The notes: a model not told the origin generated them from the sequence alone. A DNA stretch of 64,000 nt from Malaciobacter mytili LMG 24559 (GCF_003346775.1 NZ_CP031220.1:62001-126000); one strand, 5' to 3'; numbered from the stretch's first letter, positions 20,538-46,059 are shown. Made by a program: numbers and translations.

Positions 20538-21527
20538 TTAGTTAACTTTTTTTGTGAACATAGATTTGCATTTTGCAGCACCAATACAAGTATCTTTAAT
20601 AACCCATAGCCAAGAAGCAGTATCATCTTCAGAAGTTGGCTTGTTTTTAAAATTAGTCCACATAAAAGCAACTTTACCTGTTACAGTCGCATCCCATACA
20701 GTTGGATATGCTAAGTTATATGCATTTGCACTTTTAACTGCAATTGGGAAATATTTTGCACCACAAGTTGCATTTGGTATTTTTTCAACTGGTGAGAATT
20801 GAAAAGGAGCTTTTGAAGTTAATGCAAGTAATCCCCCATAATGTAAATCATCAACCATTCCTAAAGCTTGTGCATGTGAAGCTAAAATTGGTTCTTCAAC
20901 TTTTCCTCCACCATATGCAGTATTATTACCTGTTGAACCTGCACATCCTGCACACCAATGTAAGCTATTTATATTTTTATTAAAATATGTAGCAATACAA
21001 TCTGCTGAACAAGCAAGTGCTGCAATTGGATTGTTATACCATATTTTAGAGAATGGACCTTTAGAGCCTTGTGTAAATAAAGCCATAACATCATTAGTTT
21101 GTGAAGGAATTACCTCAGACCAATATAAAAAAGAAAAACTAGACATTCTTTCAAAACATACTGCATCTTGAACAAAATTTAATAACCCTAAAGGTGCAAA
21201 AGCGATAAAGTGTCCATATCTTCTATAACCATTGTCTGCTCTTGATGTACCTTGCTTTCTTGTTATACTTTTATCAAACTTTTTACCAATTGCCACAATA
21301 TTCCAAGGTGTATTTGTAAACTCAAGCATTGCAACTGGCTCTGCAATCGTTGCTTTAAGTCCTGCTGATTTAATATCTGCATCATTTGTACAACTACATA
21401 AGTCAATTGAAAATGAAGTTTTATCACCCATAAAGTGCCAATCAATATTACTCATAAATTTTAAAATAGGAGCTTCTGCATAAACTGAATTAATCAAAAC
21501 TCCCAAAAATATAATATATTTAATCAC
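20538..21527 (-). CDS. traU: TraU, DNA transfer protein
   Basis: 329 aa, close to the family length, with signal peptide 1-17. It shows the dense Cys and Trp pattern of TraU: DLCSCTND near residue 42, RYGHFIAFAPLG, YWSEVIP, CSADCIA, HWCAGCAGSTGN and CGAKYFP. About ten Cys are expected to form disulphides in the periplasm, in line with the DsbC-like gene upstream. In F, TraU is needed for DNA transfer rather than for pilus formation. Its start overlaps the end of traW by four bases. Confidence 0.9.
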   Translation of the reverse strand: MIKYIIFLGVLINSVYAEAPILKFMSNIDWHFMGDKTSFSIDLCSCTNDADIKSAGLKATIAEPVAMLEFTNTPWNIVAIGKKFDKSITRKQGTSRADNGYRRYGHFIAFAPLGLLNFVQDAVCFERMSSFSFLYWSEVIPSQTNDVMALFTQGSKGPFSKIWYNNPIAALACSADCIATYFNKNINSLHWCAGCAGSTGNNTAYGGGKVEEPILASHAQALGMVDDLHYGGLLALTSKAPFQFSPVEKIPNATCGAKYFPIAVKSANAYNLAYPTVWDATVTGKVAFMWTNFKNKPTSEDDTASWLWVIKDTCIGAAKCKSMFTKKVN

Positions 21528-22135: not shown

Positions 22136-22719
22136 TCTATATTTCTTTTTAAATACCAAATTTTAGATTCAACAATTTGTCTTTGCCATCCTTTTTGACA
22201 AGCATTTTTAAGACCTTCTTCATAAATTGATAATGCTTTTTTAAAATCTTTTGAACTTCCTAAACCTTTTTCAAATATTGCTGCATAATTTAAATATGAA
22301 TTACACATGTTCTTTTCTTTTTGATACAAAATATCTGCAAATAAAATATAATCTTGCAATTTTAAATTTAGACCAATGAAAGAATTTATTATATATAGTC
22401 CATAGTAGGCTGATATAGGATTTTTGTACTCTAATGCACTATTTCTAAAGTTGATATAACTTCCTGCCCAATTTGGAGCATTAAATGTAGTATTTTTTAA
22501 CTCTCCTGAATGAACATCTTTATATTTTGACGGATATTTTTTTATTGTTAAAATATCTTCTAATGCTTTTTTATAATGTTCATCTTTTTTAAGTATCTCT
22601 TTTGTCTCTATAGATACCTTTCCTCCAAGTTTTAAATAATTTGATAATAAAGGATCAGATACATCTGCATTTAAACTTAGTATAAAAAATGTTAATCCTA
22701 GTATTATTTTTAACATCAT
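22132..22719 (-). CDS. secreted Sel1/TPR-like protein, 195 aa
   Basis: Signal peptide at 1-18. The mature protein is helical with at least one Sel1-type unit near the C-terminus (YAAIFEKGLGSSKDFKKALS). Two adjacent ATGs are possible starts, at 22719 and 22716, with AAGGAG in front; the first overlaps the stop of the c-di-GMP enzyme gene (ATGA). The gene is tightly coupled to both neighbours and likely encodes a periplasmic scaffold for the transfer apparatus. It is not one of the standard F genes. Confidence 0.55.
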   Translation of the reverse strand: MMLKIILGLTFFILSLNADVSDPLLSNYLKLGGKVSIETKEILKKDEHYKKALEDILTIKKYPSKYKDVHSGELKNTTFNAPNWAGSYINFRNSALEYKNPISAYYGLYIINSFIGLNLKLQDYILFADILYQKEKNMCNSYLNYAAIFEKGLGSSKDFKKALSIYEEGLKNACQKGWQRQIVESKIWYLKRNIE

Positions 22720-23954
22720 GTTCTCCTTTTTATTTTATTTAGTGGTTGTGCTTCACCAAAATAGTGACCTTGTGAATAATCAACACCTATTTTTTTAACT
22801 AATTGATATATTTCTTCTGTTTCAACAAATTCTGCAATTGTTTCTATATTTAGTTTTTTACAAAAATCTACAATTGATTTAACTATTTCATAATTTTTAT
22901 TATTTATATGACAATCTTTGATAAAATGTCCATCAATTTTTAAATATTGTGTATCTATATTTGATATATGAGATAAATTTGAATATTCAGTCCCAAAATC
23001 ATCTAATGAAATTGAAGAACCTTTATTAAAAACTTGTTTAATAAATGTGTTTAACAAATCGTAATCTTTAATACTTCCACTTTCTGTAATCTCCAAAATT
23101 ATATTGTGCGAATTTTCATAACTCTCTAATTCTTTTATTATCTTATTTGCTATGTCTTTGTTGAAGATATCTTCTGTTGAAATATTAATTGATACTTTTT
23201 CTTCTCTATCTGAAAAATCTTCAAATACAGCTTTTATCATGTCTAGTGTGATTTTATTATATAGCTTTGTTCTTTTTGCAAGTTCTATAAAATGTATGGG
23301 ACTAATTATCTCTTCATTATAAGATAATCTTGCAAGTGCTTCGTATTTAACTATTTTTTTATCACTATTTCTTATTATTGGTTGATAATATGCAATAATT
23401 TTTCCTAATCTTATTGCCTCTTTATATTTATTTATTTGAAGATTTAAATTTATTGCTTTATTTCTTAACTCTTCAAATCTAATTTTGTATATCTCAAAAT
23501 ATGAATTATTTTTTCTTGCAACTTTAAAAGCAATTTGTGCTTTTGTTAATAAATCTCTTTCTCCGTAAGATACTGATGAAGTTAGAGATATAAAAATTTG
23601 TTCTTCTAATTTATCAGTTTTAATTCCTTTTACTATCAATTCTTCTGTAAAATTTTTAATTCTTAAAATTAGTCTTTCAAAATTATCTTTTGTATAATCA
23701 AATAAAACAACAAATTCATCGTTTCCAATCCTATATATATTATTTATACTAAATGTATCTTTTAAATTAAAAGCAATACTTAGAAGTACAATGTTGCCAA
23801 TTTCTTCTCCATATATACAATTTATTTCACTAAAATTATCAATATTTAGAAAAAATAAGATTCTATCTTTTCCATTTGCTAAATCTTTAAGTAAACAACT
23901 TCTATTTTTTAAAAGTGTTACATCATCTATATATTTTATTTCTATTGGCTTCAT
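22716..23954 (-). CDS. GGDEF/EAL protein: degenerate cyclase, intact c-di-GMP phosphodiesterase
   Basis: 412 aa, cytosolic, with no membrane segment or sensor domain. The GGDEF domain (about 1-150) has GNDEF at 77-81 in place of GG(D/E)EF, so cyclase activity is doubtful. The EAL domain (about 175-405) keeps every catalytic and metal residue: E205 (EAL), N257, E288 and E291 in LEITE, D318-D319 in DDFG, K339, D341, E375 and E378, and Q395 in QGHYF. It should hydrolyse c-di-GMP, the second messenger that controls motility and surface attachment. It lies inside the tra operon between an SH3 protein gene and a TPR gene, with coupled overlaps, so it is expressed with the mating apparatus. The TraC ATPase also carries a degenerate EAL domain. 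Confidence 0.85.
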   Translation of the reverse strand: MKPIEIKYIDDVTLLKNRSCLLKDLANGKDRILFFLNIDNFSEINCIYGEEIGNIVLLSIAFNLKDTFSINNIYRIGNDEFVVLFDYTKDNFERLILRIKNFTEELIVKGIKTDKLEEQIFISLTSSVSYGERDLLTKAQIAFKVARKNNSYFEIYKIRFEELRNKAINLNLQINKYKEAIRLGKIIAYYQPIIRNSDKKIVKYEALARLSYNEEIISPIHFIELAKRTKLYNKITLDMIKAVFEDFSDREEKVSINISTEDIFNKDIANKIIKELESYENSHNIILEITESGSIKDYDLLNTFIKQVFNKGSSISLDDFGTEYSNLSHISNIDTQYLKIDGHFIKDCHINNKNYEIVKSIVDFCKKLNIETIAEFVETEEIYQLVKKIGVDYSQGHYFGEAQPLNKIKRRT

Positions 23955-25866: not shown

Positions 25867-27639
25867 TTAAAAATTTCTAACTTTTTTATTTTGAAGTTCT
25901 TGTTCTATTGATAAGAAAATTTCATTTAAGTCTTTTGAGTCTTTACTTTTATCAATTATTTTATCTATTTCTATTTCAATAGCTTTTTTTCTTTCTAATA
26001 AATCATTTTCAAATGCTAATACATCACCTACTTTTCCACTTATTTGTGATAAATCAGATATCTTACCTTTCAACATATTTAATAAGCTTCTTGCAATTTG
26101 AATAGAATTTTGTTCAGCTAAAATATTTTTTAAATATGCTGATAAATATGTCTCTTTATTTGAAACTTTTTCAATCTTTGTAATTATCTCAACATATCTT
26201 GTAGCATTTGGAACAACTAGTGGAATTGTTGTTGAAAATGAATTCGATTCTATTGTTGTACTTTTTAAATCATCATATATTGTTTTATATGTTGGCTCTA
26301 TATTTGTTTTTTTTCTAACTAGAGTTCTAATTGATTTAAGTGATTCATTATATGCCCCACTCCATGTTAGTTTTAAAGATTCTTTTGTACTTGTTGTTGT
26401 ATCTGATACAATACCTGAACCAACGTGTCTATCATCACTCTCTGCAAAATCATAGTAATACACTGTGTTATCATCTATATAACAATATCCATCTCCACAA
26501 TTTGATGTATTTGTTTGTTTTTTAATACCATATATTAAAGCATTTGCAGCATTTTCTGCACTTGAAATTACCGCAGGTATTTTTTTGAATTTTTGAGGTG
26601 TTTGTTCTTTCATATCCCCACTAGCAGTTTTTTTAAGTGAGTCTTTAATTAACTTAGTACTTATTTTGTATGAACCTTTTTCATAGCCTTTTTTACCTTC
26701 AAATGCTTCTGTTCCTGCAAGTACATTTGATTTATAACTATCAATGTCAACTGCTAAATCTCCAAAAAAAACTCTAGTAATTTTAATTAAATTTTTAAAT
26801 TCAGCTAAATCAGTTCCCGTTGCAACTGTTGTTGAATCTATTTTTCCATTGTCAAGCAGATTACTTAATTTATCTATAAATAGTTTATTCTCTGATTTAT
26901 CAGGAATTGGAATATTTGTATTAATAAATCTTGCTGCTGTAATATTTGTACTGTTTTTTGGTGGATTAGGTTTTGTAGAACCTAGCTTTTCCATACACTT
27001 TGCAGCAGGTGAAATTTCTCCATTTGGTCCTGGTGCTGTGCTTAAATTAGAACAATTTGTAAATTTGTCTATTTCTTTGAAAACCCCATCTAATCCAGTC
27101 ATTCCACTTTGAAGTGTATCACTAATTGGATTATCATTAATTGCATTATTTACAGTTTGCATAGCTTTATTACCTGAGATTGTTGATGTGGCAAGCATAG
27201 TTCCTATATTACAAGCATTTTGTAACATTCTTTGTATAGTTGCTGCCCAACTTCTTATTTTATTAAAAACATCAAATAATGCAGGTACCGCATATTGTAG
27301 TGCAATCATAGCACCCCAAGCTAATGATGCTCCTGCATCTTTTATTTGATCTTTTATTTCATTTAATCCAAGTAAACCAACAAAGCCCCCTTTTAATGAA
27401 ACTCCATTACATCCTACTTTAAATGAAGGTGTTTCATAAGTAATTAATGGTTGAAATTTATTAGAGCCATTAAATGTAAACTCGTAACTTCCTCCATAAT
27501 GATATTTAGTCCCCGTTGAAGGAGATTCCCATGTTCCTGAACTTGAACGATAATCAGTTATCATATCTTTTAAATCAGTTGCAAATACATTTGCAACTAA
27601 ACATAAGACAATGAAAAATGAAATTATTTTATTTTTCAT
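25867..27639 (-). CDS. traH: TraH, pilus assembly protein
   Basis: 590 aa from the ATG at 27639, which overlaps the upstream stop (ATGA) and has TTAGGAG in front. A start at 27669 would add a non-signal leader. A signal peptide ending near VFA is followed by the TraH hallmark CNGVSLKGGFVGLLGL and the helix KDAGASLAWGAMIALQY. A C-terminal coiled coil (about 520-595) is also typical. TraH sits in the periplasm or outer membrane and is needed for pilus extension and mating. It lies upstream of the DsbC-like gene. Confidence 0.9.
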   Translation of the reverse strand: MKNKIISFFIVLCLVANVFATDLKDMITDYRSSSGTWESPSTGTKYHYGGSYEFTFNGSNKFQPLITYETPSFKVGCNGVSLKGGFVGLLGLNEIKDQIKDAGASLAWGAMIALQYAVPALFDVFNKIRSWAATIQRMLQNACNIGTMLATSTISGNKAMQTVNNAINDNPISDTLQSGMTGLDGVFKEIDKFTNCSNLSTAPGPNGEISPAAKCMEKLGSTKPNPPKNSTNITAARFINTNIPIPDKSENKLFIDKLSNLLDNGKIDSTTVATGTDLAEFKNLIKITRVFFGDLAVDIDSYKSNVLAGTEAFEGKKGYEKGSYKISTKLIKDSLKKTASGDMKEQTPQKFKKIPAVISSAENAANALIYGIKKQTNTSNCGDGYCYIDDNTVYYYDFAESDDRHVGSGIVSDTTTSTKESLKLTWSGAYNESLKSIRTLVRKKTNIEPTYKTIYDDLKSTTIESNSFSTTIPLVVPNATRYVEIITKIEKVSNKETYLSAYLKNILAEQNSIQIARSLLNMLKGKISDLSQISGKVGDVLAFENDLLERKKAIEIEIDKIIDKSKDSKDLNEIFLSIEQELQNKKVRNF

Positions 27640-28361
27640 TTTAATGCTCCTAACCCACAAGTAGTACATTCCGTACTCTTTTTAATGTTGTTTTTTATTC
27701 CCATACTATTATCACAAGCATTTTTTATTGTAGGTTCTACATTTGGATTATTGCAAGCTGTATTTAAATATTTTTTTGCCTCTTCATAATTACCTGCAAT
27801 ATTTAATAAATTTGCAATACTAAAATCCAATGAAGATACATTTGTAATTTGTGATATTGGATAAGTTAAATCTAATGCTTTATGAACATATGGCATATTT
27901 GTAAATTTATAATCCAATACTATTCCATTATAAGTTACCGCTAATACTATTTTACTATTTGGATCAGTATTCTTACCTTTTAGTCCTTTCTCTAATAGCA
28001 ATAGAGCATTATCTAAATCACCAATCATTATATAATCTTCAATTAATGCTAATGATGCTAATCCATAACCCAAATTTAATGCTTTGTTTAAATAGATTTT
28101 TGCTTTTTCTTTATCAGCTTTTTTAAATGGAAAATCCTCTAAATACAATGCACCTAATGAAAAATATTTAGATTGATCACCTTGCGTTATTGCTTTTTTT
28201 AATAATGATTCAAGCTCCATGTAATCTTCATATGTTCTTATCTCTTTTTGTTCTTTTGTATCTACACTTATACCATTGTTTAAGTATGAGTTTGTAAAAG
28301 TTTGTGCAAATGTATAATTTACCAAAATCATAAAAATTAAACTACATTTAATTAGCCTCAT
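27636..28361 (-). CDS. secreted Sel1/TPR repeat protein, 241 aa
   Basis: A signal peptide (1-19) is followed by Sel1-like repeats (YFSLGALYLEDF, then units ending in KALNLGYGLASLAL, and later NIAGNYEEAKKYL). The C-terminus has CTTCG, a CXXC-like motif, plus three more Cys, in a context where disulphides are expected. The start overlaps the stop of traF and the stop overlaps the start of traH, so it is tightly co-translated with both. Likely a periplasmic scaffold. Not a known F gene. Confidence 0.6.
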   Translation of the reverse strand: MRLIKCSLIFMILVNYTFAQTFTNSYLNNGISVDTKEQKEIRTYEDYMELESLLKKAITQGDQSKYFSLGALYLEDFPFKKADKEKAKIYLNKALNLGYGLASLALIEDYIMIGDLDNALLLLEKGLKGKNTDPNSKIVLAVTYNGIVLDYKFTNMPYVHKALDLTYPISQITNVSSLDFSIANLLNIAGNYEEAKKYLNTACNNPNVEPTIKNACDNSMGIKNNIKKSTECTTCGLGALK

Positions 28362-31023: not shown

Positions 31024-32388
31024 CTAATATGCTATTTCAAGATTCACTTTTTGTTGATTTGTTTTATACTCTAATAATGTTTTATTAATTTTTAACCACT
31101 CTTCTAACATAACAATCTTCTCTTTAATATCTTTTTCTAACTCTTTTATTAATTCTTCTATTTTTGGTGTAAATACTTGATTTGTTTTATTAACAAAAAA
31201 TATATTATTCTCAAACAACTTATTTACTTGTTCAACAACATTTCTAAATGAGTAAAGTTCATTTTTTATAACTTCTAGTAAATAGCTACATGAACTTGAA
31301 ATCAAATTGATATTTTCATAATTTGTTAAATATTCTTCTTTATTATTAATATCAAATATTTTTTTATAATAAATTAAATTAATGTAATTATTATTCAATT
31401 CCAATTTTATTTCCTTGAAATCAGAATTAATTGTATTTATTACATTTTCTAAATATTGTTCATTTCTAAATATATAGTTATAGAAAATTTTATCTACTCT
31501 CTCTTTTTCAGTTTTATTATGCCAAGAAGTAAACAATAGTAATATAAAATCTGATATATCAATATAACTTCTACCATTTAAATAAGCAACAATTTTCATA
31601 AACTTTACTGTTCTTTTATACTTTCTATCTGATGTTTTAACTTCTGATTTAATAAATTCTTGTGTAATATCTATAAATCTTTCAACTAAGATTTTGTCAA
31701 ATATTACCTTATCTGATTCTTTATATATAAAATCTATATCCTCTTTTGAAAAATATTTTGTTAAAATTGGTTCTTGTATAAAATCATTTAAATATAATTT
31801 TTTTCTATTCTCTCTTTCTGCTATTGCTTTCACTACTACCCAAAAATCAAATCTATCCACATATGGAGCCATAAACTTATCTTCTGGATACTCATTTGAA
31901 GCAGCAAAGAAACAATTTATGTCTGTCTTCTTTTTCTCTCCATCCCCATATGTATATGTTCTATCTATTAGTACTTCTAATAATCCACTTAACTTTCGTC
32001 CCTTGATTTTAAACATTTCATCTATAAAAATACTAAAAGCTTCTAACAACGAACCCTTTGTATTAATTTTTAATTCACCTTCGTTTGTCGTATAAATTCT
32101 TCCAAATAACTCCTCTGTTGTTGTATCCTCTTTACCTACAATTTGCCATAATTTTTTCGCTCCTGAAATAATACTCCCGAACATATCAATTACATAGGAT
32201 TTACCTACACCTCTTTCACCTATTAAAAAAGTATTTGCCTTTGCAAAATATGTAAGGGCAATTATTCTTATTAATTCCTCTCTTTCAATAGCTCTTAATT
32301 CCATTTCTTCAAATAGTTTTCGTAGTTTATCTTTATATTCTTTTGCTTTTGTCATATCTATTATTGTACTAATTTCATTATTACTCAT
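31024..32388 (-). CDS. MoxR/RavA-type AAA+ ATPase
   Basis: 454 aa. The N-terminal AAA+ module has Walker A GERGVGKS at 57-64, Walker B SIFIDE at 119-124, sensor 1 in FFAASNE and an Arg-containing DRFDF motif, in the arrangement of the MoxR branch. The C-terminal 200 residues are helical, with a coiled coil near the end. MoxR ATPases act as assembly or metal-insertion chaperones, usually with a VWA partner, and no VWA gene is next to it. It follows the coupling-protein gene by 8 bases, so it may remodel the coupling or relaxosome complex. Not part of classical F operons. It is the last gene of the proximal block. Confidence 0.75.
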   Translation of the reverse strand: MSNNEISTIIDMTKAKEYKDKLRKLFEEMELRAIEREELIRIIALTYFAKANTFLIGERGVGKSYVIDMFGSIISGAKKLWQIVGKEDTTTEELFGRIYTTNEGELKINTKGSLLEAFSIFIDEMFKIKGRKLSGLLEVLIDRTYTYGDGEKKKTDINCFFAASNEYPEDKFMAPYVDRFDFWVVVKAIAERENRKKLYLNDFIQEPILTKYFSKEDIDFIYKESDKVIFDKILVERFIDITQEFIKSEVKTSDRKYKRTVKFMKIVAYLNGRSYIDISDFILLLFTSWHNKTEKERVDKIFYNYIFRNEQYLENVINTINSDFKEIKLELNNNYINLIYYKKIFDINNKEEYLTNYENINLISSSCSYLLEVIKNELYSFRNVVEQVNKLFENNIFFVNKTNQVFTPKIEELIKELEKDIKEKIVMLEEWLKINKTLLEYKTNQQKVNLEIAY

Positions 32389-32396
32389 ATTATCCT

Positions 32397-34265
32397 CTAT
32401 TCAATTTTTTCTTCTATGAAATTCTTTTCTACACTTTTTAATCTTCTCTCAATTATTGCTACTTGGTTGTATAATTCCTCATATTCAAGTTTTGGCATTT
32501 CAACATTGATACTACTTGGATCTTTTTGATAAGGGAATGTTACATAATATTTTTTACCATAGTGTTTTATAAACCCTTCACCAATTCCTAAGTCATCCAT
32601 ATCTGACGAGGATACTAAATCTCTATCCTCATAGACAACTGTACTTCTTCCACCTGCATTATCATTTTCTTTCATAGCTACATTTATTGCTACCTTCCTT
32701 TTCCCAAATGATTCTGCACACTCTTTTCTTGAGCCCTCACTCCCTTGTTTCATATAAATAGGAGTTGCAGTATTATCTTGTACAATGTCTGCTAAAGTAT
32801 CTCCCAATTTAAATTTAATATCACTTCTTGACTGATAAAATGCACCAATTGTCATTCCTAATTGTCGTGCTTTATTATATATTTCCTCAATACCAGGGAA
32901 CATCATTGGTTTTGCTTCGTCAACAATTAAACCAAATCTTCTATCTACGCCTCTTCCTGATGTACCAATTGTCCCATATAATGATAAATACATTCTTGTA
33001 TATATCTTTATCATCATTTCTGATATTTTCTCAAAATTCATTGGAGCAGGTTGTAATATAATAATTACACCCTCTTCATCTCTTATTCTTTGAACTATTG
33101 GATTTATTCTTATATCACACATAATACTCCCAATTGGTCCATATGCTATTTGTGATAATATAATTGATAACGAGTCACCAACTTTTTCAAAAAATGCTTT
33201 TTCTTTTGTTACCATTGAGTGTAATAATCCAATTGCTTCTTCTTTTATTTGTCTAAGTTCAAACTCATTTTCTAATGAAGCTATTGGATAATCTTCTACT
33301 AATTGTTTTAGTTCCACTAATCTATCGTAGTTAGAAAAATATGCTAATTCTCTAAAAGTTATTAAAGTTCTATTAAAAGGAGATATCATATGTTTTACAT
33401 TTGTTTTTTCTAAATCTTTTAATGAAATTTTACTTATATCAGGTAATATATTTACACCATCATCATGTAATATTTCAGTGTTTTTATGCTCTTTAAAATT
33501 GTTATATTTTATTACTTCTTTCTCTATTGACCGACTTATATCTTCTTTTGAATAAGCTGCTTTTTCTAAAAATTCTGTTGAAGTTAATATACCTTTTATT
33601 GTTCTATAGACTTGTCCTGAATAAAATTGATCGTTTGATGAAACTACTCCTGCGGATGGAACTGCAATCGCTGATATTAATGATGCAATTTCATCAGTAC
33701 TCATAGCATAAATCGGATTACCTTTATCTGATAAATCTGGAAATGCAGACATTATTCTCATTACTGTATGATTTCTATTTGCTTCTGCTGCAAAGTCATA
33801 TACCCATTGTGCTACCTCTTGTCTTTCCCCTCCTTTGGGATCTACTACCATCAAAGACCACCCAAACTTTGTCATTTGACGTATCATTGATGCCATTAAT
33901 CTTGATTTTCCATAACCTGATGTTCCATAAACTTCGAAATGGTTGTGTAGGTTCTTCCAAGGCAAATATAATAATTCTTGTTCTAAAGAATCTGATTCTA
34001 AATTTATGGCAACTCCTATCCACAATCCCTTTTTTACATTGTAAAAATATTTTTCATAATCTATGAAAGTTTCTTCTAATATTTTTCTCTCATATTGTAG
34101 TGCCTTTAATTTTTGTTCTGTTTTAAAATCTTTAATATTATATTTTTCAAAATTGTCTTCAATTTCTTTAATATCTTTAACAATTTGCATAATATCTCTA
34201 TTTAATTTTAAATACTCATTGAAAATATTCTCTCTACTAGTGAAATACTTTGATAAAAAACTCAT
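32397..34265 (-). CDS. traD: TraD/VirD4-family coupling ATPase without membrane anchor
   Basis: 622 aa. Walker A GTSGYGKS lies at 114-121, with MVVDPKGG just after it. Walker B, GLIVDEAKPMM, is followed by ARQLGMTIGAFYQSRSD, the TraM-recognition-type region of coupling proteins. Coupling proteins link the relaxosome to the channel and pump DNA. The first 100 residues are a soluble coiled coil rather than the usual two membrane helices, so it must be recruited through partners. It follows traC by 15 bases and precedes a MoxR ATPase gene. A HerA-like origin cannot be excluded. Confidence 0.75.
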   Translation of the reverse strand: MSFLSKYFTSRENIFNEYLKLNRDIMQIVKDIKEIEDNFEKYNIKDFKTEQKLKALQYERKILEETFIDYEKYFYNVKKGLWIGVAINLESDSLEQELLYLPWKNLHNHFEVYGTSGYGKSRLMASMIRQMTKFGWSLMVVDPKGGERQEVAQWVYDFAAEANRNHTVMRIMSAFPDLSDKGNPIYAMSTDEIASLISAIAVPSAGVVSSNDQFYSGQVYRTIKGILTSTEFLEKAAYSKEDISRSIEKEVIKYNNFKEHKNTEILHDDGVNILPDISKISLKDLEKTNVKHMISPFNRTLITFRELAYFSNYDRLVELKQLVEDYPIASLENEFELRQIKEEAIGLLHSMVTKEKAFFEKVGDSLSIILSQIAYGPIGSIMCDIRINPIVQRIRDEEGVIIILQPAPMNFEKISEMMIKIYTRMYLSLYGTIGTSGRGVDRRFGLIVDEAKPMMFPGIEEIYNKARQLGMTIGAFYQSRSDIKFKLGDTLADIVQDNTATPIYMKQGSEGSRKECAESFGKRKVAINVAMKENDNAGGRSTVVYEDRDLVSSSDMDDLGIGEGFIKHYGKKYYVTFPYQKDPSSINVEMPKLEYEELYNQVAIIERRLKSVEKNFIEEKIE

Positions 34266-34280
34266 AGATACATCCTATTT

Positions 34281-37200
34281 TTATTTAAAATCAACTATTT
34301 GTGGTTTATCATATAAATAACCTTGAGCATACTTAATATCAAATTCCCTTAACAACTCTTCATCTTCTTTATTCTCAACTCTTACTAATACAGTTTTTAC
34401 ATCTTTTGAACTATTCAATAAAGCATATATTAATGACTTTGCGTGTATGTATGAAACTTCATCCTCTAATATTTCTTTTAAATCTTCAAGATTAATTTTA
34501 TATTGTGATGGTTTTAACGAAATAAGAGTTTTTATATCTAAATGTCCAAAATCAATATTATCAAGTGCAATTTGAACACCTTTTTCTTTTAACTTAAATG
34601 CAAAAGATATTAACTCATTTATGTTTTCTTTTGTCTCATAATTCAACATAACATCAAAAATTAATTTTTCTTTTACCCTGTCTTCTAATGCATCTATTGA
34701 ATCATATAAAAATTTTTGGAAATTCTTATTTTTGATTTCATCTATATCTAAATTAATAGATAATTTTTCATTTAAACTTCCTATAAAAGTAGCATATCTC
34801 AAACATTTATCAACAAATATTTTTGAGATATCAATATAAAAGTTTTTATCTTTAGAAGCAGTTTTGAAAAAACCATTTGTATAATATTGACCTTTATACT
34901 TTATTCTTAATAGAAGTTCTTTACCTATTGATTCTTTATTCTCTATATTATAAATATTTTGTTCAGATATTAATATGTTCTCTTTATTTAATGTTTCTGC
35001 AAAAAAGTCGTTCCAATCAATATCATAATTGCCTTTTTTCTTTCTTATATTAAATCTATTTTGTATTTCTTCTTCTTTTAGACCTTCACTCTTTCTTGCT
35101 AAATACCAAACTGCATCAGATAAACTATATCCCTTTTCTTTTCTAATTATTTCAATTTGTGTTCTATCTGAAGGTTTTGATGTAAAAGTCCAATAATCAT
35201 CAACATTTACTTTTGTTAATACTACAAAAGTAGCATTTTGATATTGTATAAATGCCTCGTTGTAGTGTGGTGGTCTAGTTTTTGTACTTTTAAATAAGTT
35301 AGTTTGGAAATTATTCAAAGAAATATATTTATGTTTAAGATCTGTTTCTATAGTTTGATTTGATGAAGGTAAAAATATTTTAAATGATGCAGTTGTGTAT
35401 ATTACTTCTGCTGCTTTATTACTAAAAAAGTCCGAAGTTCTTTGTGTAATAATAAGAGTCATTCCATTATACTTTCTAATTCTTCTTGCAAAATCTTCTA
35501 AGAACTCTACGAATATTTTACTATTAAGTACTTTCCAAGCTTCATCAATTCCAATAATTCTTGAAGTACCTTTATTTTTTAAATAACCAACAAAAGCTTC
35601 TTGTGCCATTCTTTGTAATAGTCCCATCGCAACAACTGGCAAGATTGGCTTATCTGCTATTTCATCTAATTCTGCAACGAAATGTTTTGAAGTAACATCA
35701 ACATTATTAATCCCATTATAATATTTGAAGTAAGGAGAACCAGGTTTTGTATAATTTTCTAAAGCTGTAATAATCATGTGCAAAATATTAATTTCTTGCA
35801 TATTTACATCTCTATCTTCAACATTAGAAACTAAATCTTTTCTAAAATCTTCTAATGCCTCTCCTACCTCTTTCATTCCTGCACTTTTATGATGAATTGC
35901 AAATGCATGTGCAACTGCTCTTCTAATTATATTTGTATAAGTTGTTAACTTTAATTTTTCTTCTTCACTTATATCTGATTTGTAAACATTTTTTAACGAC
36001 ATACCCATCATTAAACCAATACAAGGAATAATAGTATCGTATTCATCTTCATGTATAATTTCTACTTCTTTCCCATCAATAGTAACTTTTGAAGTATTAA
36101 TGTATGTAAAGAAATTTAAACACTTACTATTATTTTCTTCAAAAATTAAATATTGCCCTCCAATGTTACTATTAAATATTTGATAACCTTTACCAAATTC
36201 AATTAATCTAATATCCCAACCTGCAGCCATTCCATTTGCTTGTAAATCATTTGAAAAAAATGATTTTCCAGAACCTTGTGGACCAATAACTACAACATTA
36301 TAATTTTCATTTCCTGCAAAATAATCAACTGGTATTAATTTACCAGTTCTTCCAACATAAATATGCGATGGAGTTCTCGAACTCAAACCTGAAAAATCAT
36401 TTATTAGAGGTGCAATTTGTGCATTATTTGATTTAAAAGTTAAATCCATCTTTTTAATATTATCTTGTATTAAATCCGAATAATTCAATGGTATTGATTG
36501 TATAAATATTTGATAACAGATTGGACTAAATGTTTCTTCTTTTAATAACCATCTTCCTTGTATTGCTTCAAAACTTTTTTTTATTGCCCCTACTGATTGA
36601 TTTAATTTATTCAAATTTTTACTCCATACAACTAAATCCCATTTTGCATCTAATGGAAATTCTCCTTGCATTTGAACTAAATCAATTACTGCTTCACTCT
36701 CATCTTTTAACTGTTTAATATCAGGAAAGGTTTTTTCTAATTTTACACCTAATGTTGCTGTCTGTCTATAATTAGCTTTTGCTTTTTTTAATATTTGTTT
36801 TCTTCTTTTTTCAACATTTGTAAATTTAATTGTAAGTGATATCATAAATGGATCAGGCAAATGCATTTGTATATCATCACCCATAACATCAAAAAAAGCA
36901 TTTTGATAACTGAATAAATCTACGAATGGAGGAAACTTATCAGTCGTTAGTACTTTTGCCTTCCAAGTTTCATTATTGCCAAAATGAAGAATACCTTTTT
37001 CATCATCTAATCTAATTCTTGCACCTTTTGTAATTTGTGTATTTATTTTTGTTATTGGATCATTACTATCTTCATATTCACCTAACTCTGGATTGATGAA
37101 CTCTTTAATAAGTGGAATAAATTCACTTGCAGGCAGACATCTACCTCTCATTTGCTTTAGAATTCCTAATATTTGGTTATATTGTTCTTGTATAGTAAAC

Positions 37201-37772
37201 TCATCTGTATCATATGGAAATAATACTGAGATTGTATTTCTAATATCTCTTATTTTCATATCAGAATCTCTACCTAGAATAGATTGATCTCTCCATCTAT
37301 TTAAGTACTCTATTTTATTAGTTACATAATCTTTTAAAATCTGTGGATTTTTAAGATTAAGTTTTTCATCTAATTTATGTGCTTCTTTATAACCATCAAG
37401 ATATTTTTTTATATTTCTACCTGCAAAAGTATTAATATAAACTACAGTATTATCTCTTACTATTGTTCCAAGCATTGAGATTATGTCATTTTCTATTTTT
37501 TCAGATAAATATGGAGGTGGATATACTTCAAAAACTGCCCCATACCTTCCATCTGCCATTAAATATAAACCAATTGGTTCAGAACCTTCATTTTCTATCT
37601 CATAGTAAGTTCTATGAAACATAAGCTTTGATATTGTATTTTTCTCTGACAATGCTTGTATTTGCTCTTTAGTAAATTCTTTCTCATCCCTTTTTACTAT
37701 TTGTGTTGGTACAATAAAATTAGTTAGTTTTTTGCCTATGCTTTTAAATATATCATTATCTAATCTACCCAT
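34281..37772 (-). CDS. traC: TraC secretion ATPase fused to a degenerate EAL domain
   Basis: 1163 aa; type-F TraC is about 800-900 aa. Residues 1-920 are TraC/VirB4-like, with Walker A GPQGSGKS near 497 and Walker B IIGIDEAWKVL near 742, followed by ITQRTSDF. The extra C-terminal 230 residues read as an EAL domain: ELLLR at 952-956 (EAL-x-R), INLD at 1006-1009 (Asn kept), LDNIDFG at 1070-1076, YKIN at 1091-1094 (KID with Asp lost) and QGYLY at 1150-1154. The LEITE Glu pair has become D and L, and the AEG Glu is Arg, so phosphodiesterase activity is unlikely. It could bind c-di-GMP or a protein. TraC powers pilus assembly, so this would place second-messenger sensing in the pilus motor. Confidence 0.85.
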   Translation of the reverse strand: MGRLDNDIFKSIGKKLTNFIVPTQIVKRDEKEFTKEQIQALSEKNTISKLMFHRTYYEIENEGSEPIGLYLMADGRYGAVFEVYPPPYLSEKIENDIISMLGTIVRDNTVVYINTFAGRNIKKYLDGYKEAHKLDEKLNLKNPQILKDYVTNKIEYLNRWRDQSILGRDSDMKIRDIRNTISVLFPYDTDEFTIQEQYNQILGILKQMRGRCLPASEFIPLIKEFINPELGEYEDSNDPITKINTQITKGARIRLDDEKGILHFGNNETWKAKVLTTDKFPPFVDLFSYQNAFFDVMGDDIQMHLPDPFMISLTIKFTNVEKRRKQILKKAKANYRQTATLGVKLEKTFPDIKQLKDESEAVIDLVQMQGEFPLDAKWDLVVWSKNLNKLNQSVGAIKKSFEAIQGRWLLKEETFSPICYQIFIQSIPLNYSDLIQDNIKKMDLTFKSNNAQIAPLINDFSGLSSRTPSHIYVGRTGKLIPVDYFAGNENYNVVVIGPQGSGKSFFSNDLQANGMAAGWDIRLIEFGKGYQIFNSNIGGQYLIFEENNSKCLNFFTYINTSKVTIDGKEVEIIHEDEYDTIIPCIGLMMGMSLKNVYKSDISEEEKLKLTTYTNIIRRAVAHAFAIHHKSAGMKEVGEALEDFRKDLVSNVEDRDVNMQEINILHMIITALENYTKPGSPYFKYYNGINNVDVTSKHFVAELDEIADKPILPVVAMGLLQRMAQEAFVGYLKNKGTSRIIGIDEAWKVLNSKIFVEFLEDFARRIRKYNGMTLIITQRTSDFFSNKAAEVIYTTASFKIFLPSSNQTIETDLKHKYISLNNFQTNLFKSTKTRPPHYNEAFIQYQNATFVVLTKVNVDDYWTFTSKPSDRTQIEIIRKEKGYSLSDAVWYLARKSEGLKEEEIQNRFNIRKKKGNYDIDWNDFFAETLNKENILISEQNIYNIENKESIGKELLLRIKYKGQYYTNGFFKTASKDKNFYIDISKIFVDKCLRYATFIGSLNEKLSINLDIDEIKNKNFQKFLYDSIDALEDRVKEKLIFDVMLNYETKENINELISFAFKLKEKGVQIALDNIDFGHLDIKTLISLKPSQYKINLEDLKEILEDEVSYIHAKSLIYALLNSSKDVKTVLVRVENKEDEELLREFDIKYAQGYLYDKPQIVDFK

Positions 37773-38185: not shown

Positions 38186-41100
38186 TTAATTCATTTCTTC
38201 AATTTTTTTATTTGCTTTTTCAATTTCTTCAATTGCACTCTCTAGTCCATCACTTAAATCTTCATTTCTTTGCATCATTTCTTCCGTCATAGAAGAAAGC
38301 ATATTTACATTTCTTACTTGCCCCATTGCATAAGCTTCCTGTATATTAAATCTAGTCTGTATTTGATCTAGTAACATATCTTTAGTAGTTAATGAGTTGT
38401 CGATTTCTTGCCCATTTCCAAAATTACTTCCTGCAATTGCATTTGCAAAATTATTTCTGAAATTGTTATTTTGCATTGCTTGTTGTAAATCATCGTATGG
38501 CAATTTTGTAGGCATGCCATTTATTCTTGCCATTCTGTCAATTGTTTGTCCAATATTTACTTCCCCACCTAATGAATTTAGATGCATCGCACTATTATTT
38601 GTATGTAATGCTTGTAAATTTTGGCGTTGTAAAGTTGAAATTTGTTGTTGAAGACTACTTGTAAAATTCCCATTTGACATGTCTTCTTGAATTGCCCTTT
38701 GAGTATTTGTATTATCTAACCCAAACATTCTACTAAATCCATCTACTGTTCTATCCCAAGCACCAGATAATTCTGTTCCTAATGAATGTCCTATATATTG
38801 TTCTTCTCTTCCTCTTCTTGCAATTTCTTTTAATTGTTGACTGTCCATTACTGCCAATGCCATATCACTTGCACCAGTTGGATCAACTGAAGAAGAAAGT
38901 GTAAAAGCTGCTCTTGTATAATTTCCATTATTAAAATGGTCGTTTGCTTCTGCCGCTGCCAAACCTATTGATCCAACCGCAAGTAATTTCCCTATAAAAG
39001 GCATTTTATTGAATTTCTCAGCAATATCTGAAAACATACCGAATCTATCTATATGTTCTTCTATTTTTCCAATTCTATTTAATGCATTAGTATCTAAACC
39101 AAGTTTTTTCTTATCAAAATCACTAAGTTCTTCTAAGTTTTTACCTTTGTAACCTTCCAATCTTTTAATCTCTGCTAATCCTGATTCTGTACCTGCATCA
39201 AATAATTTTTTCTTTTCATCTAACCAATTATCCATTGCTTTTTGTCTAGTTTCACTAATTTTATTTGAATCAGTGTTTATCTCCCCATCTTTTTGTGTTA
39301 TAATGTCATTATCTTTATAAGAGGAGTTTTTTATGTTATCAGTTTTATTTTGGACACTAGTTGTATATGTTTGTCTAGCTGTATTAACTGTACTTTCTGT
39401 ATTTTTGATGCCAGATGGTGCTAGACCATCTACTTCTAAAAGAGATCCTTTCACTGGTCGTTCACTAGAAGAAGAGTGATAATCCACTCTACTTTTAGCA
39501 CCTATATTATTTTCTAAATATTCATCGACATCAATATTGCTCTTTGGATTAAATTTTTTTTCTTTTCCATCATCTCCTTTCCCTCTAACATTACCTGTAT
39601 ACCCATCTTTTATATCCGCTGCTTTTTCTTTTAGGTTACCAAATGATTTTCTTACTTTTCCCCCTGATAAAAAGTCTAAAGCTGCAAGTACAGTTGCACC
39701 TTGAAGTAAGCCAGTTGCAATTTCCCCAAGTGTATCTAAACCTAAATTATCTATCAATGGATTATAATTAAGCTGATTCCCTTGATTTTTAACATGCACA
39801 TCCTCATTAGTTTCTTGCCTATTTCCAGTTGTTAAACTATTTTGTGAAGTTGCAACTACTGAAGAATTTTTCCCTAGTGCACCACTTAAAACCATACCAC
39901 CTGCTACTAATGCATTTTGACTATTCATATTATTTGCATTTAAAAAAGCTTTGGCTTCTACCCACTTATCTGTATCAACAGTATAATTATCTACTGTTCC
40001 ATTAACTAATCCAGATTTTTTTAAATCTTCAAAAACATCTTTAAATCGTGTTTCATTTTCTTTTTTTGCTGCTGTCAATCCTTTTTTTATGTAGTCTTCT
40101 AAATATTCTTTGTTATCAATTACGTTTTTCAGTCCTTTTGCAGATCCAATCATTTGTTGTGTTTTATACTGTGAAGAAGATTTTAATATTTCATATCCTT
40201 CTGTAGTTAGCATACCTGTTTTTTCATCATAATAAGGAGTCTTCAATTTACCTTCTAAGTCTGATTTAGATTCAGAAGTTTTACTAGCTGCTTGCTTAGC
40301 TGCAAAATCTACTTGTGCTTGATATCCATCTTTACCAAATACTTTTGCAGTTGAAATCATTGAAGTAATTTTTGAACCCTCTGCTCCTTTTAATCCTTCT
40401 TTATACTCTTTTGTAAGTTCTCCCTTATTATCCATTGCTTCTTTATTATAAACACTTGCAGAAATTGCTGCTTCTTCAAATTTACCCTTTGCCATGTTTT
40501 CAAAATTTTGCAAATCTTGTAAAGTTAAATTTGCCTTACCTACCCCTGCAAATTCTCTTGATTCTTTATCAAATCTATTTTCCATACTTTTTTTTGTTAA
40601 ATCAGTTATCTTATTATCTTCACCAATTAATTTTGCATCTTTTCTCGAATTTAATTGTTGTACATCTTGTCCTATTTGCATTGATGTAGATGCTATTGAA
40701 GTTGCTATTGCATTAGCTTCCGTTAATTCTTCCGACATTGTTTTTGCACTATATTTTTCTTTTAATGCTTGCAACTTTGAAGCTTGCCTTAGACTATCTG
40801 CTCCATTATCTGAAACAAATGATGAAACTCCACTAATATTCCCAACTGCTGAGTTACCCTCAGCTATACCAACATTTTTATGTTGTTCAAAAGTACTTTG
40901 TGAACCAACAATACTTCTCGATGTCAAATCTTTTAACGAACTCATTGCATTTCCTCTTGCTGCATCATTTAACAAATGATTATTAGATGCTAATGTTAAA
41001 CCCGTACTTGTTGAATTTAAATCATTCATTAATTGATTGTAATAATCTCCAACTGCCATATTTCCAGGAGTATAACCTGCTTTTTCTAATGCATGTTGTT

Positions 41101-42706
41101 TTAACATGTCCTCATATGCTTGATTTTTTGCACTTGCTTGACTTGTTGTTGTCAATGCAGTATCAATGTCATTTCCTGCATATCTTCCTGATAAGCCACT
41201 TAATGCTCCTGCAGCTGCAGCTACTTTTCCAGTGAAAACAATTGTTGGTATTAAAAAAACTGCTGATACTCCTAATATTCCTGCAATTCCTGCCATAGTA
41301 GCCATATAATTAAGATAATATGGTATATTTTCTACTGTTGCTAAATTACTCCCTAATGCACTTAACACATCTGATGCATGAAATTTTGAATATTGTATAA
41401 CTTGATTATTTGCTAGAGCCATCGCAACTCGCACAAATTCAAATGTCAATAACCCTTGTGCATAATTTGATAATAACATTAAGCCTTTTTCATAACCTAA
41501 AGCAATAGAAATAATAAGTACAAAAATTCCACACACATAAATAATTCCCATTAAGAAATGATATCCCATAGGTAATACTTCTGCAAGCCATTTAAATTGA
41601 CCTATTCCTTCTGCTTGTATTTTAGCTTTTGATGTTTCTAAAGTAATTGAATTGGCTAAATCTTGCCCACTAGTTGTTGTTCCAGATGAATTTCTTATTG
41701 CTCTTGAAATTGGACCAATAGTACTTGCGTTATATATAAAAGCTTTGTACTGCCCTACTTTACCAGATATAAATGAATCTGCAATTTTCATTTTTGTAAC
41801 TTCTGCTAAATCATCAAACTCACTTGCTGATTGAACAGAATTTTCAAGACTTTTTATTGTAATATCTACAACTTCTGAATAGTTTGTAGTTAGAAAATTA
41901 TATATTTCGCCACATGTAGAATAATTATTACTATCCGAATCTACAAAATTTGCACTCGCTAAAGTAATATTTAATTTTGTTGCATCAAGTTCTTTTATTA
42001 TATCTTGTGAAGGATTTCTAACACTTCTCATTATGTCAGCATTTCCATTATAGTATGCATGTTCTAATACACATGTAGAAACATACTCGATTAATGCTCT
42101 TTCATAATCACTACTCTTTTTATCATTACCAAATTTTACATAATTTACTATTCTTTGTACATCATTAAATGCATTTGCAAATCCAATTGCTCTTTGGCTT
42201 ACCCCATCTGAATCTATATCAACAGTTGCATCATTAACTTTATCTTCTAAAGTTAAAGTAATTGTAGAAGATAAACTAATAATAGCAGCAATTGGGAATG
42301 GGATATTGTCAACTTTTGCATAATTTACTCCACCATATTTAGTATAATCTATTGCTGTTCTTTGATCCTCAATATGCACACTTACTGATAATATTCCACT
42401 TAGTGACATTGCCCCAAACATTAAATATATTGTGTTGTAAGTTATTGAAGATATGTTTGATTGTTTTGCAGACTTTAATGTACTTATAAAATATAATAGA
42501 ACAACTATACCTGATATTATTGCTTCAATTGTAGTTTTATCTGTCATTAATTTACTAATTACTTTAAAAGCACTCTCAATTGATTGTACATCACCTACAA
42601 CAAAAACTGGAAAATCTGTAATGTATGAAGTTCCTGTTGGTGTATAACTACCCGCAAATAAGCTACTAACTGCTACTAAAAATAGCAATATTAATATTCT
42701 TAACAT
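38186..42706 (-). CDS. traG: TraG, mating-pair stabilisation protein
   Basis: 1506 aa against 938 in F. A signal-like first helix is followed by several membrane helices in the first 510 residues (around 60-80, 90-112, 380-410, 415-440 and 460-510), in the TraG N-terminal layout, then about 1000 residues of Gln/Asn/Ser-rich helical periplasmic or translocated region. A further hydrophobic helix near residue 1230 lies in FIGKLLAVGSIGLAA. TraG's N-terminal half acts in pilus assembly and its C-terminal half in mating stability and entry exclusion. The ATG overlaps the upstream stop by one base. The expansion parallels that of TraN. Confidence 0.8.
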   Translation of the reverse strand: MLRILILLFLVAVSSLFAGSYTPTGTSYITDFPVFVVGDVQSIESAFKVISKLMTDKTTIEAIISGIVVLLYFISTLKSAKQSNISSITYNTIYLMFGAMSLSGILSVSVHIEDQRTAIDYTKYGGVNYAKVDNIPFPIAAIISLSSTITLTLEDKVNDATVDIDSDGVSQRAIGFANAFNDVQRIVNYVKFGNDKKSSDYERALIEYVSTCVLEHAYYNGNADIMRSVRNPSQDIIKELDATKLNITLASANFVDSDSNNYSTCGEIYNFLTTNYSEVVDITIKSLENSVQSASEFDDLAEVTKMKIADSFISGKVGQYKAFIYNASTIGPISRAIRNSSGTTTSGQDLANSITLETSKAKIQAEGIGQFKWLAEVLPMGYHFLMGIIYVCGIFVLIISIALGYEKGLMLLSNYAQGLLTFEFVRVAMALANNQVIQYSKFHASDVLSALGSNLATVENIPYYLNYMATMAGIAGILGVSAVFLIPTIVFTGKVAAAAGALSGLSGRYAGNDIDTALTTTSQASAKNQAYEDMLKQHALEKAGYTPGNMAVGDYYNQLMNDLNSTSTGLTLASNNHLLNDAARGNAMSSLKDLTSRSIVGSQSTFEQHKNVGIAEGNSAVGNISGVSSFVSDNGADSLRQASKLQALKEKYSAKTMSEELTEANAIATSIASTSMQIGQDVQQLNSRKDAKLIGEDNKITDLTKKSMENRFDKESREFAGVGKANLTLQDLQNFENMAKGKFEEAAISASVYNKEAMDNKGELTKEYKEGLKGAEGSKITSMISTAKVFGKDGYQAQVDFAAKQAASKTSESKSDLEGKLKTPYYDEKTGMLTTEGYEILKSSSQYKTQQMIGSAKGLKNVIDNKEYLEDYIKKGLTAAKKENETRFKDVFEDLKKSGLVNGTVDNYTVDTDKWVEAKAFLNANNMNSQNALVAGGMVLSGALGKNSSVVATSQNSLTTGNRQETNEDVHVKNQGNQLNYNPLIDNLGLDTLGEIATGLLQGATVLAALDFLSGGKVRKSFGNLKEKAADIKDGYTGNVRGKGDDGKEKKFNPKSNIDVDEYLENNIGAKSRVDYHSSSSERPVKGSLLEVDGLAPSGIKNTESTVNTARQTYTTSVQNKTDNIKNSSYKDNDIITQKDGEINTDSNKISETRQKAMDNWLDEKKKLFDAGTESGLAEIKRLEGYKGKNLEELSDFDKKKLGLDTNALNRIGKIEEHIDRFGMFSDIAEKFNKMPFIGKLLAVGSIGLAAAEANDHFNNGNYTRAAFTLSSSVDPTGASDMALAVMDSQQLKEIARRGREEQYIGHSLGTELSGAWDRTVDGFSRMFGLDNTNTQRAIQEDMSNGNFTSSLQQQISTLQRQNLQALHTNNSAMHLNSLGGEVNIGQTIDRMARINGMPTKLPYDDLQQAMQNNNFRNNFANAIAGSNFGNGQEIDNSLTTKDMLLDQIQTRFNIQEAYAMGQVRNVNMLSSMTEEMMQRNEDLSDGLESAIEEIEKANKKIEEMN

Positions 42707-44307: not shown

Positions 44308-44531
44308 TATCTTTTACCTTTACATCTTGAACAATCAATGTTCTCATATGACTTTTCTATATCTTTATATCTTGTTTTATAAATATTAAACACATCACCA
44401 CAAATCCCTGCATCTGCATAATTGCATCCTTGCTCTTCGCAAGAACCCATTGGCTCCCCTATATTAAAATAACTACATCCAGTAAATGAAAGTATTATGA
44501 ATACTAAAACTAAATTAATAATTTTCTTCAT
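44307..44531 (-). CDS. traV: TraV-like lipoprotein, N-terminal type
   Basis: 74 aa from the ATG at 44531 with AAGGAA upstream. A signal peptide ends in the lipobox SFTGC. After it comes a Cys motif MGSCEEQGCNYADAGICGDVFNIY, and this arrangement of Cys pairs followed by V-x-x-x-Y is the N-terminal signature of TraV. The protein then stops after a CSRC motif. It overlaps traB by 17 bases and the next lipoprotein by one. The role is an outer-membrane anchor of the core complex, likely with the following 172-aa lipoprotein. Confidence 0.55.
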   Translation of the reverse strand: MKKIINLVLVFIILSFTGCSYFNIGEPMGSCEEQGCNYADAGICGDVFNIYKTRYKDIEKSYENIDCSRCKGKR

Positions 44532-46059
44532 TGTAAATTTCCTTATTAACAAAATATCCTACATCAAAGTTTTCATATTCAACAGGAGTTAATAATTCAC
44601 CACCTTTAAATGCTAGTGTAACTTCCCTTTTTGCTTTGACTTCTACATATGGATTTAAATTTTCTAAAACTTTTAAATAATACTCTGAAAATTTTGAAAG
44701 AATTTTACTACTTGTATTGGCTCCTGCATTAGTAAATTCTAACATTGGATTTGCTGTATCTGTTCCTCCGTCTTTACTGTTTGTTGGGAATATGTAACTA
44801 TTTCCTTTTGCTAAAACAGAAATAAGTCCTTCAAGAGTTGCTAAAGGGACACCTTTTTTTATAATCTCCCCCTCTTTACTTACTAATCTACCTTTTGCAC
44901 TAAGTTTTCCATCTTCACCATATACATTACCTTTTATTTGTGTGTTTATTCTGTATTTCTTTCCATCAAGGTCTGTCATAATACAAGAAATCTTTTCCAT
45001 GTTTACTCTTGCTCTTGAAGGTCCTAAATCACCTGATGCAGTTGCTTCTACCAAACAATCTTGAAAATTTGCATACTCATTGTTTGCCATTAATTGTTCA
45101 CTACTAATTGATATCCAAATTGGTTTTGTTTCTGTTGCAGCTTGCATTAATGTTGGAACATCTGCCCCTGCTACAATTACACCTTTAGCAAATCCAGGCA
45201 TTAAGAAAAATGAAGGTAATGTTTTTTTCTCTTCTTTTGGCTTATTCTCCTCTATTTTTGTCAATGTTTCAATACCATAATCTGCAACTGCTATTTCTTC
45301 TTCTACTTCAATCTCTACTTCTTTTAAAATTTCTTTTTTCTCAATTTCTTTTCCGTTATTAACAACTGTTGAAGATTTAGTTACATTTGTTGGCAAGTCA
45401 GGTAATTTAATTATTGGTTTAATTTGAGTTAATTTTGCTTTGTTTTTTAATTCTTCTAAACTTTTTGCAAATTTATTATCTACATTATTAATTTGAGAAT
45501 TTAGACTATCTTTTATCTCTGAAACCAATTCTTGATTTTTAATATTTATACTTTGAACAAGTTCTTGTGTTTTTTTATCTTTTTCAGTCATTGCATCTAA
45601 AATTTCTTTTTTAACAGAACCAAAATTTTCTACTAATTCCTTTTTAGTATCATTTATTTTTTCATTTAACTCTATTTTATTTTGAGTTGTAAGAGTAGTT
45701 ATTTCATCTAACTTTTTATTTAGTTTTACATCTTCTTTGTCTTTTTGGTCTTGCCATCTTGTAAAACTATTGATTTCCATTTTAATTTCTTTTTTAGGGA
45801 TTTGCTTAGTAATTTTTGTTTCATCAAATTGTGCGTAATATAATCTCATTGCTTTCCATAAAACAACTAAAGAGAAAAATACAAGTGGTATAATTATCAA
45901 AATAAGTATCATTCTAAATTTAAATTTTTTATTTCTTTCTTTTCTTTTAGTTTCACTTGATTTAAGACCTTGAAGTGCGGTTACTGTTATATCATCATTA
46001 CCACTTTTAATGTTATTTAAATAATCTCTTATTTTATTAATGATTTTATTTAGTTCCAT
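44515..46059 (-). CDS. traB: TraB, core complex protein (VirB10-like)
   Basis: 514 aa. The cytoplasmic N-terminus is followed by one membrane helix (about 48-70), a coiled coil (95-210) and the TraB beta-barrel domain with LMPGFAKGVIVAGADVP, QDCLVEATASGDLGPSRA and GRLVSKEG, all hallmarks of type-F TraB. It spans both membranes and forms the secretion channel core with TraK and TraV. Its ATG overlaps the TraK stop (TAATG). The C-terminal 100 residues hold the antenna region. Confidence 0.9.
   Translation of the reverse strand: MELNKIINKIRDYLNNIKSGNDDITVTALQGLKSSETKRKERNKKFKFRMILILIIIPLVFFSLVVLWKAMRLYYAQFDETKITKQIPKKEIKMEINSFTRWQDQKDKEDVKLNKKLDEITTLTTQNKIELNEKINDTKKELVENFGSVKKEILDAMTEKDKKTQELVQSINIKNQELVSEIKDSLNSQINNVDNKFAKSLEELKNKAKLTQIKPIIKLPDLPTNVTKSSTVVNNGKEIEKKEILKEVEIEVEEEIAVADYGIETLTKIEENKPKEEKKTLPSFFLMPGFAKGVIVAGADVPTLMQAATETKPIWISISSEQLMANNEYANFQDCLVEATASGDLGPSRARVNMEKISCIMTDLDGKKYRINTQIKGNVYGEDGKLSAKGRLVSKEGEIIKKGVPLATLEGLISVLAKGNSYIFPTNSKDGGTDTANPMLEFTNAGANTSSKILSKFSEYYLKVLENLNPYVEVKAKREVTLAFKGGELLTPVEYENFDVGYFVNKEIYNEENY

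Follow-up and report, generated by a model that had tools for sequence, protein, structure and literature searches.

A TraC-family conjugation ATPase with a degenerate, probably still selected EAL domain in Malaciobacter mytili and other Campylobacterota

The traC gene on a 170-kb second replicon, or plasmid, of Malaciobacter mytili LMG 24559 encodes an F-type TraC/VirB4 conjugation ATPase that continues, in the same polypeptide, into a complete EAL domain, a type of domain that normally degrades the signal cyclic diguanosine monophosphate (c-di-GMP). The replicon carries ParA and ParB genes, and the part of it analysed here, referred to as the window, is 64,000 nucleotides long (NZ_CP031220.1:62001-126000). 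The gene is a single intact frame on the minus strand (34281-37772, ATG start, 1163 amino acids), with coordinates and strand confirmed as exact. The EAL pocket is probably inactive but still selected, because the residues of the first metal site are kept and those of the second metal site and of catalysis are lost across 13 homologous tails. We see an even chance that this tail is a regulatory receptor module on the conjugation motor, with c-di-GMP or a close nucleotide as its ligand and local turnover of that ligand by an enzyme of the element.

The ATPase core of the type IV secretion system (T4SS) occupies residues 1-905 (35058-37772, minus strand). Pfam recognised TraC_F_IV at residues 68-431 (80.4 bits) and the TraG P-loop domain (P-loop_TraG) at residues 489-893 (112 bits), both above cut-off, and a Walker A motif, GPQGSGKS, lies at residues 497-504. 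The NCBIfam TraC-F-type model matched residues 72-894 with 387 bits. This falls short of the equivalog cut-off of TIGR02746 (567 bits), and by its sequence the protein is a divergent TraC homologue and not an equivalog. The C-terminal tail, delimited with AlphaFold models, comprises residues 906-1163 (34284-35057, minus strand). Within it the Pfam EAL model (PF00563) scored 72.7 bits over residues 932-1157 (34302-34979, minus strand; E=3.9e-20), its cut-off being 31.3. Profile positions 12-236 of 236 are aligned, so the domain is nearly complete and the match far beyond chance. NCBIfam models matching residues ~905-1158 were those of EAL proteins such as CsrD and LapD. A phmmer search against solved structures also recovered EAL proteins from the sequence alone, the best being Bd1971 (5e-6).

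The AlphaFold model of residues 906-1163 had a predicted local distance difference test score (pLDDT) of 92. Its nearest solved structures were all EAL domains (Z 21-26), including those of LapD, MucR, PdeA and FimX (Z 24-26), and the top match was the LapD EAL domain with c-di-GMP (Z 25.7, root-mean-square deviation 2.7 over 237 residues). Since the alignment behind this model included ordinary EAL proteins, a full-length control model was run with TraC rows only. Its core matched R388 TrwK/VirB4 and its tail matched EAL structures, with a short low-confidence hinge between them at residues 913-917. The first-pass annotation had proposed a TraC fused to a degenerate EAL domain and had named an unrelated C-terminal fold as a result that would count against it. 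The fusion was borne out by Pfam, NCBIfam, phmmer and the predicted fold, which is that of an EAL domain with LapD closest. Chance EAL-like motifs are ruled out by the profile, fold and solved-structure searches.

Searches of Campylobacterota genomes found 12 further complete TraC-EAL proteins (1142-1236 amino acids) in elements of at least four other families (G138, G327, G349, G380, G257, G437, G251, G367, L070, G481, G715 and G710 in our numbering), which rules out a sequencing or assembly artefact. G257 is Helicobacter labetoulli and G380 is Helicobacter sp. 12S02634-8, both of the Helicobacteraceae. Two more TraC-EAL frames, in G548 and G704, were cut by contig ends and were not counted, so that the counts of residue decay given below cover 13 complete proteins. 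The tail is open and full-length in all 13, which represent at least five families. Ordinary Campylobacterota TraCs of the same families end at 828-864 amino acids, before the tail, and a universal TraC tail is thereby ruled out. Nor do the TraCs of this clade share a tail devoid of EAL similarity, another outcome that had been named in advance as a refutation; the similarity of their tails to EAL domains is clear. One of the relatives (L070, JALUWO010000201.1) lies on a contig binned as Candidatus Gracilibacteria, where TraC-EAL and its neighbours are 36-48% identical to those of the window; the bin label may be wrong, or the host range wider. The viral collection contained no TraC-EAL and only one ordinary TraC. 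Among the best 5000 PLSDB records none covered 80% of the query, and no close tailed relative was present among these.

A tree built from TraC cores placed the first ten TraC-EAL proteins in one clade against ten ordinary TraCs, with full support in the Shimodaira-Hasegawa-like approximate likelihood ratio test (SH-aLRT 100). Three later TraC-EAL proteins fell on the same side when added, still compatible with a single origin. In the tail tree the tails clustered with support of 91/91, with one stray long-branch EAL inside the cluster. From these trees a single origin of the tails is compatible with the data but not proven. A TraC from G784 (L179:1456-4260) is related to the TraC-EAL clade; its frame of 935 amino acids is tail-less and is followed directly by the next gene. 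It stood at the base of the TraC-EAL group in the enlarged core tree, in a poorly supported position, and could represent either the state before fusion or a loss.

The first-pass annotation held that the Glu pair of LEITE and the Asp of KID are missing from the window tail. This loss was confirmed, and the degeneracy extends further. LEITE is replaced by FDVML, the first Glu having changed conservatively to Asp and the second being lost, and KID reads KIN; in addition DD reads DN and Val stands in place of the first Glu of AEGVE. At the four positions characteristic of active phosphodiesterases (the second Asp of DD, the second Glu of LEITE, the Glu of AEGVE and the Asp of KID) the window has N, N, V and N. 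The window tail retains the EAL-motif Glu together with the Asn, Lys and Gln, and with them the floor of the pocket; the Arg after the EAL motif (R956) is kept as well.

The same pattern recurs across the 13 tails. Every tail has the EAL-motif Glu, the Asn of INLS and the Gln of QGY, and 12 of 13 have the Lys of KID and the first Asp of DD. The first Glu of LEITE is also found in 12, the window tail with its Asp being the exception. The second Asp of DD and the Glu of AEGVE are present in none. The second Glu of LEITE occurs in at most one tail, that of G251, where it hinges on gap placement. The Asp of KID is variable and was lost in several tails, and six tails retain the Arg after the EAL motif. 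From our own alignment and family knowledge we take Asp183 of PA3825 to correspond to the Asp of KID, and Glu217 to the Glu of AEGVE. In PA3825 metal 2 is held by Asp183 and by the second Asp of DDFGTG (Asp161), and Glu217, at the beta7-alpha7 loop, contributes to the second metal site (PMC5301497). The Asn positions metal 1 in BlrP1 (PMC3989770). As judged from these residues, the TraC-EAL clade retains the equivalent of the metal-1 site and drops the metal-2 and base side. That the tail is a slow or conditional phosphodiesterase is scarcely credible: the metal-1 residues, Lys and Gln do remain, but the second Asp of DD and the Glu of AEGVE are missing from all 13 tails and the second Glu of LEITE from at least 12.

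Distinct tails are ~18-50% identical in pairwise comparison, clearly below their TraC cores. Of 19 columns that are invariant in other EAL proteins, 6 showed no variation among the first ten tails, compared with 4 of the 214 other columns (p=2e-5). In the closest pair the tail had a ratio of nonsynonymous to synonymous substitution rates (dN/dS) of ~0.1, a value resting on 10 differences. The column conservation speaks for a non-catalytic pocket kept by selection, probably to hold a ligand, and part of it may reflect fold stability. The faster evolution of the tail than of the core and the tail-less sister TraC in G784 would suit a functionless, decaying relic of a chance fusion. Such a relic is very improbable, given that no tail among the 13 complete proteins is interrupted, that column conservation is strongly uneven and that the closest pair, with its few differences, has a low dN/dS.

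The transfer operon of the window also encodes a GGDEF-EAL protein of 412 amino acids (22716-23954, minus strand; Pfam EAL 203 bits, GGDEF 45 bits). Its EAL half has all catalytic residues and its GGDEF motif is altered to GNDEF, from which we predict a c-di-GMP phosphodiesterase. In G715 this slot is filled by a free canonical EAL protein (L184:8235-8969), which lies between the orthologues of the gene at 22132 and of the DsbC-like gene. A phosphodiesterase gene in one tra-operon slot of two distant elements is a candidate for a conserved operon component. G138 has a free canonical EAL protein adjoining helicase and topoisomerase genes, G327 a topoisomerase with a GGEEF cyclase domain, and G710 a GGDEF-EAL protein of 544 amino acids in its transfer cluster. 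In a uniform hidden Markov model scan of the regions, where non-Helicobacter elements were counted if at least 22 kb long (G481 and L070 were too short), an element-borne c-di-GMP enzyme was found in all five non-Helicobacter TraC-EAL elements (the window, G138, G327, G715 and G710) and in none of the six from Helicobacter. Two of ten ordinary-TraC clusters had one, in one case a mere remnant.

In the receptor scheme, the ligand of the tail would be c-di-GMP or a closely related nucleotide, for instance pGpG, into which c-di-GMP is cleaved; it would be held with no more than one metal ion and left intact. Its binding would move the tail about the flexible hinge, or would move a partner docked there, and this movement would set the activity or assembly of TraC. 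The phosphodiesterase of the element, or the cyclase in one relative, would adjust the ligand level. Beyond a dead EAL pocket under constraint, we infer every mechanistic step. Like receptors of the LapD/FimX type, the window tail pairs a preserved pocket with a catalytically dead EAL fold. Binding of c-di-GMP and second-messenger control are favoured because the metal-1 pocket is kept and c-di-GMP enzymes lie in the same operons.

Several observations weigh against the receptor scheme. The difference between five of five non-Helicobacter TraC-EAL elements and two of ten ordinary-TraC clusters (Fisher p 0.007) comes from a small sample, with groups drawn post hoc and differing hosts. This genome has 35 GGDEF and 20 EAL matches, and co-location is partly to be expected because free-living Campylobacterota are dense in such genes; the co-occurrence is supportive, not decisive. 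LapD and FimX, the dead EAL proteins that bind c-di-GMP, decayed otherwise than the TraC tails. The pocket Arg is lost in seven of the 13 tails. The six Helicobacter relatives are in elements without c-di-GMP enzymes, and three of them are in hosts without a recognisable active cyclase. GGDEF matches are confined to a degenerate protein in these three (G349, G257 and G437), where c-di-GMP could serve as the ligand only if other hosts provided it. The Arg losses and the lack of an active cyclase in Helicobacter hosts thus weaken the case for c-di-GMP binding and control.

The TraC tail is the sole EAL domain of the genome in G349, G257, G437 and G367. A canonical cyclase is present in G367, G380 and G251. 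The degenerate GGDEF proteins of G349, G257 and G437 agree with a published survey in which Helicobacter, one species aside, lacked active cyclases (PMC9239204). In the same three hosts the Arg that follows the EAL motif has given way to Y, Y and C, which, the hosts being close relatives, amounts to one or two events. Because the tail is kept where c-di-GMP appears to be absent, it is not a c-di-GMP sensor everywhere; in the Helicobacter relatives it probably survives as a domain that binds a partner or another ligand.

This retention, together with the variable pocket Arg and the faster evolution of the tail, would also fit a protein-docking or assembly domain without any role for c-di-GMP, one that would tether TraC to a partner in the T4SS or in the host, or would help the TraC oligomer. 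VirB4 is a trimer of dimers, as in the matched R388 structures, and YdiV offers a precedent, binding FlhD through its EAL fold (PMC3510510). YdiV, however, has lost eight of ten catalytic residues (PMC3510510), whereas the TraC tails keep the metal-1 set almost without exception; most pocket residues have not been lost, the metal-1 residues, Lys and Gln standing in 12-13 of the 13 tails. The tails have largely lost the FG of DDFGTG, which belongs to the dimerisation region of active EAL proteins, so that classical EAL dimerisation is not favoured. We regard docking alone, the main rival of the receptor scheme, as possible but rather unlikely. A further alternative, which we rate as improbable, is that the pocket holds another small ligand found in all hosts, for example pGpG, a short RNA or DNA end or some other phosphorylated metabolite. 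It would agree with the persistence of the metal-1 site and of Lys and Gln whether or not the host has c-di-GMP, and a FimX EAL structure has been solved with pGpG bound, but by itself it leaves the element-borne c-di-GMP enzymes of the non-Helicobacter elements unexplained.

Extended from the single protein to the group, the receptor scheme leads to a proposal that we hold tentatively, at somewhat less than even chances: a family of Campylobacterota conjugative elements would carry its own c-di-GMP circuit, made up of the TraC receptor and an element phosphodiesterase or cyclase, with conjugation gated directly at the post-translational level and the receptor rewired in Helicobacter, where c-di-GMP was lost. 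If so, one polypeptide would link the c-di-GMP network, which governs swimming versus surface life, to the conjugation motor, and a mobile element could time its transfer to surface attachment. The common decay pattern, together with the contrast that hosts with and without c-di-GMP offer, makes what dead EAL domains sense directly testable.

The traC gene belongs to a minus-strand F-type transfer operon with genes for TraE, TraB/TrbI, TraG, a TraD-type protein, a MoxR/RavA-type ATPase, TraH, a DsbC-like protein and TraU; the same series also has a type IA topoisomerase and a HerA/VirD4-like ATPase. TrbC gave a sub-threshold match only. Adjoining TraC is the TraD-type coupling protein (32397-34265; Pfam TraG-D_C and TrwB_AAD_bind), a neighbour conserved in the relatives, and beside it the MoxR/RavA-type AAA+ ATPase (31024-32388; Pfam bpMoxR), syntenic in the relatives. 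To our knowledge such an ATPase beside TraD is unusual for F-type operons. TraG, for mating-pair stabilisation (38186-42706; Pfam TraG_N), the TraB/TrbI-type core complex protein (44515-46059; Pfam TrbI), TraH (25867-27669; Pfam TraH) and TraU (20538-21527; Pfam TraU) are all likewise on the minus strand. No relaxase was recognised among the window open reading frames scanned, and simple promoter pattern matches were at chance level.

The type IA topoisomerase of the window (52226-54652, minus strand; Pfam Topoisom_bac) is without a cyclase domain. Its orthologues in G327 (L043:2-2335) and in the ordinary-TraC G093 (L194:5232-8231), which are distant elements, have a C-terminal diguanylate cyclase domain (RYGGEEF). 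In the ordinary-TraC cluster of G224 a DNA/RNA endonuclease-like protein (L195:13135-13908) ends in ~50 residues of EAL domain (AEYVED...FSQGFYIGKP), an apparent remnant of an element-borne phosphodiesterase. Four large element proteins of the window (54656-56536, 9435-14165, 14776-17025 and 17184-19520) had no Pfam match. A NACHT-domain NTPase of 812 amino acids (6120-8558), near an integrase gene (4544-5476), had no PADLOC match and is possibly an undescribed defence gene.

Full-text literature searches, including searches for conjugation together with c-di-GMP, found no published TraC/VirB4-EAL fusion, most subscription journals being outside their scope; within that literature, the first-pass statement that no TraC of this form has been described stands. 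The window protein shares core domains, fold, motifs and operon context (TraH, TraU, TraG, TraB/TrbI, TraE and TraD) with F-type TraC/VirB4 proteins (PF11130, TIGR02746; R388 TrwK), and differs from them in ~260 extra C-terminal residues that form the EAL domain. LapD and FimX have the same EAL fold with catalysis lost, and LapD is a precedent for control through a dead EAL domain (PMC3032553). The window tail also keeps the Arg after the EAL motif, whose counterpart in LapD, R450, sits in the middle of the c-di-GMP site (PMC3032553). LapD, however, has lost the first Glu (KVL) (PMC3032553) and FimX is without DDFGTG (PMC5301497), whereas the TraC tails keep the metal-1 residues and lose the second Asp of DD and the Glu of AEGVE, and the EAL domain of the window is fused to a conjugation ATPase. 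YdiV, the anti-FlhD4C2 factor, resembles the tails as a non-catalytic EAL domain with a protein-level role, but they differ from it in their metal-1 set. MshE, of type IV pili and type II secretion, is a precedent for a secretion or pilus ATPase under direct c-di-GMP control (PMC4624772). It belongs to another ATPase family and binds c-di-GMP through an N-terminal T2SSE_N domain, with no EAL. The integrative and conjugative elements of the SXT/R391 group also carry c-di-GMP enzymes, but these are cyclases encoded within variable hotspot DNA (PMC2791158). Their conjugation motor is not known to bear a receptor domain. The kind of system is known; what appears to be new here is a T4SS ATPase with an added receptor-like domain.
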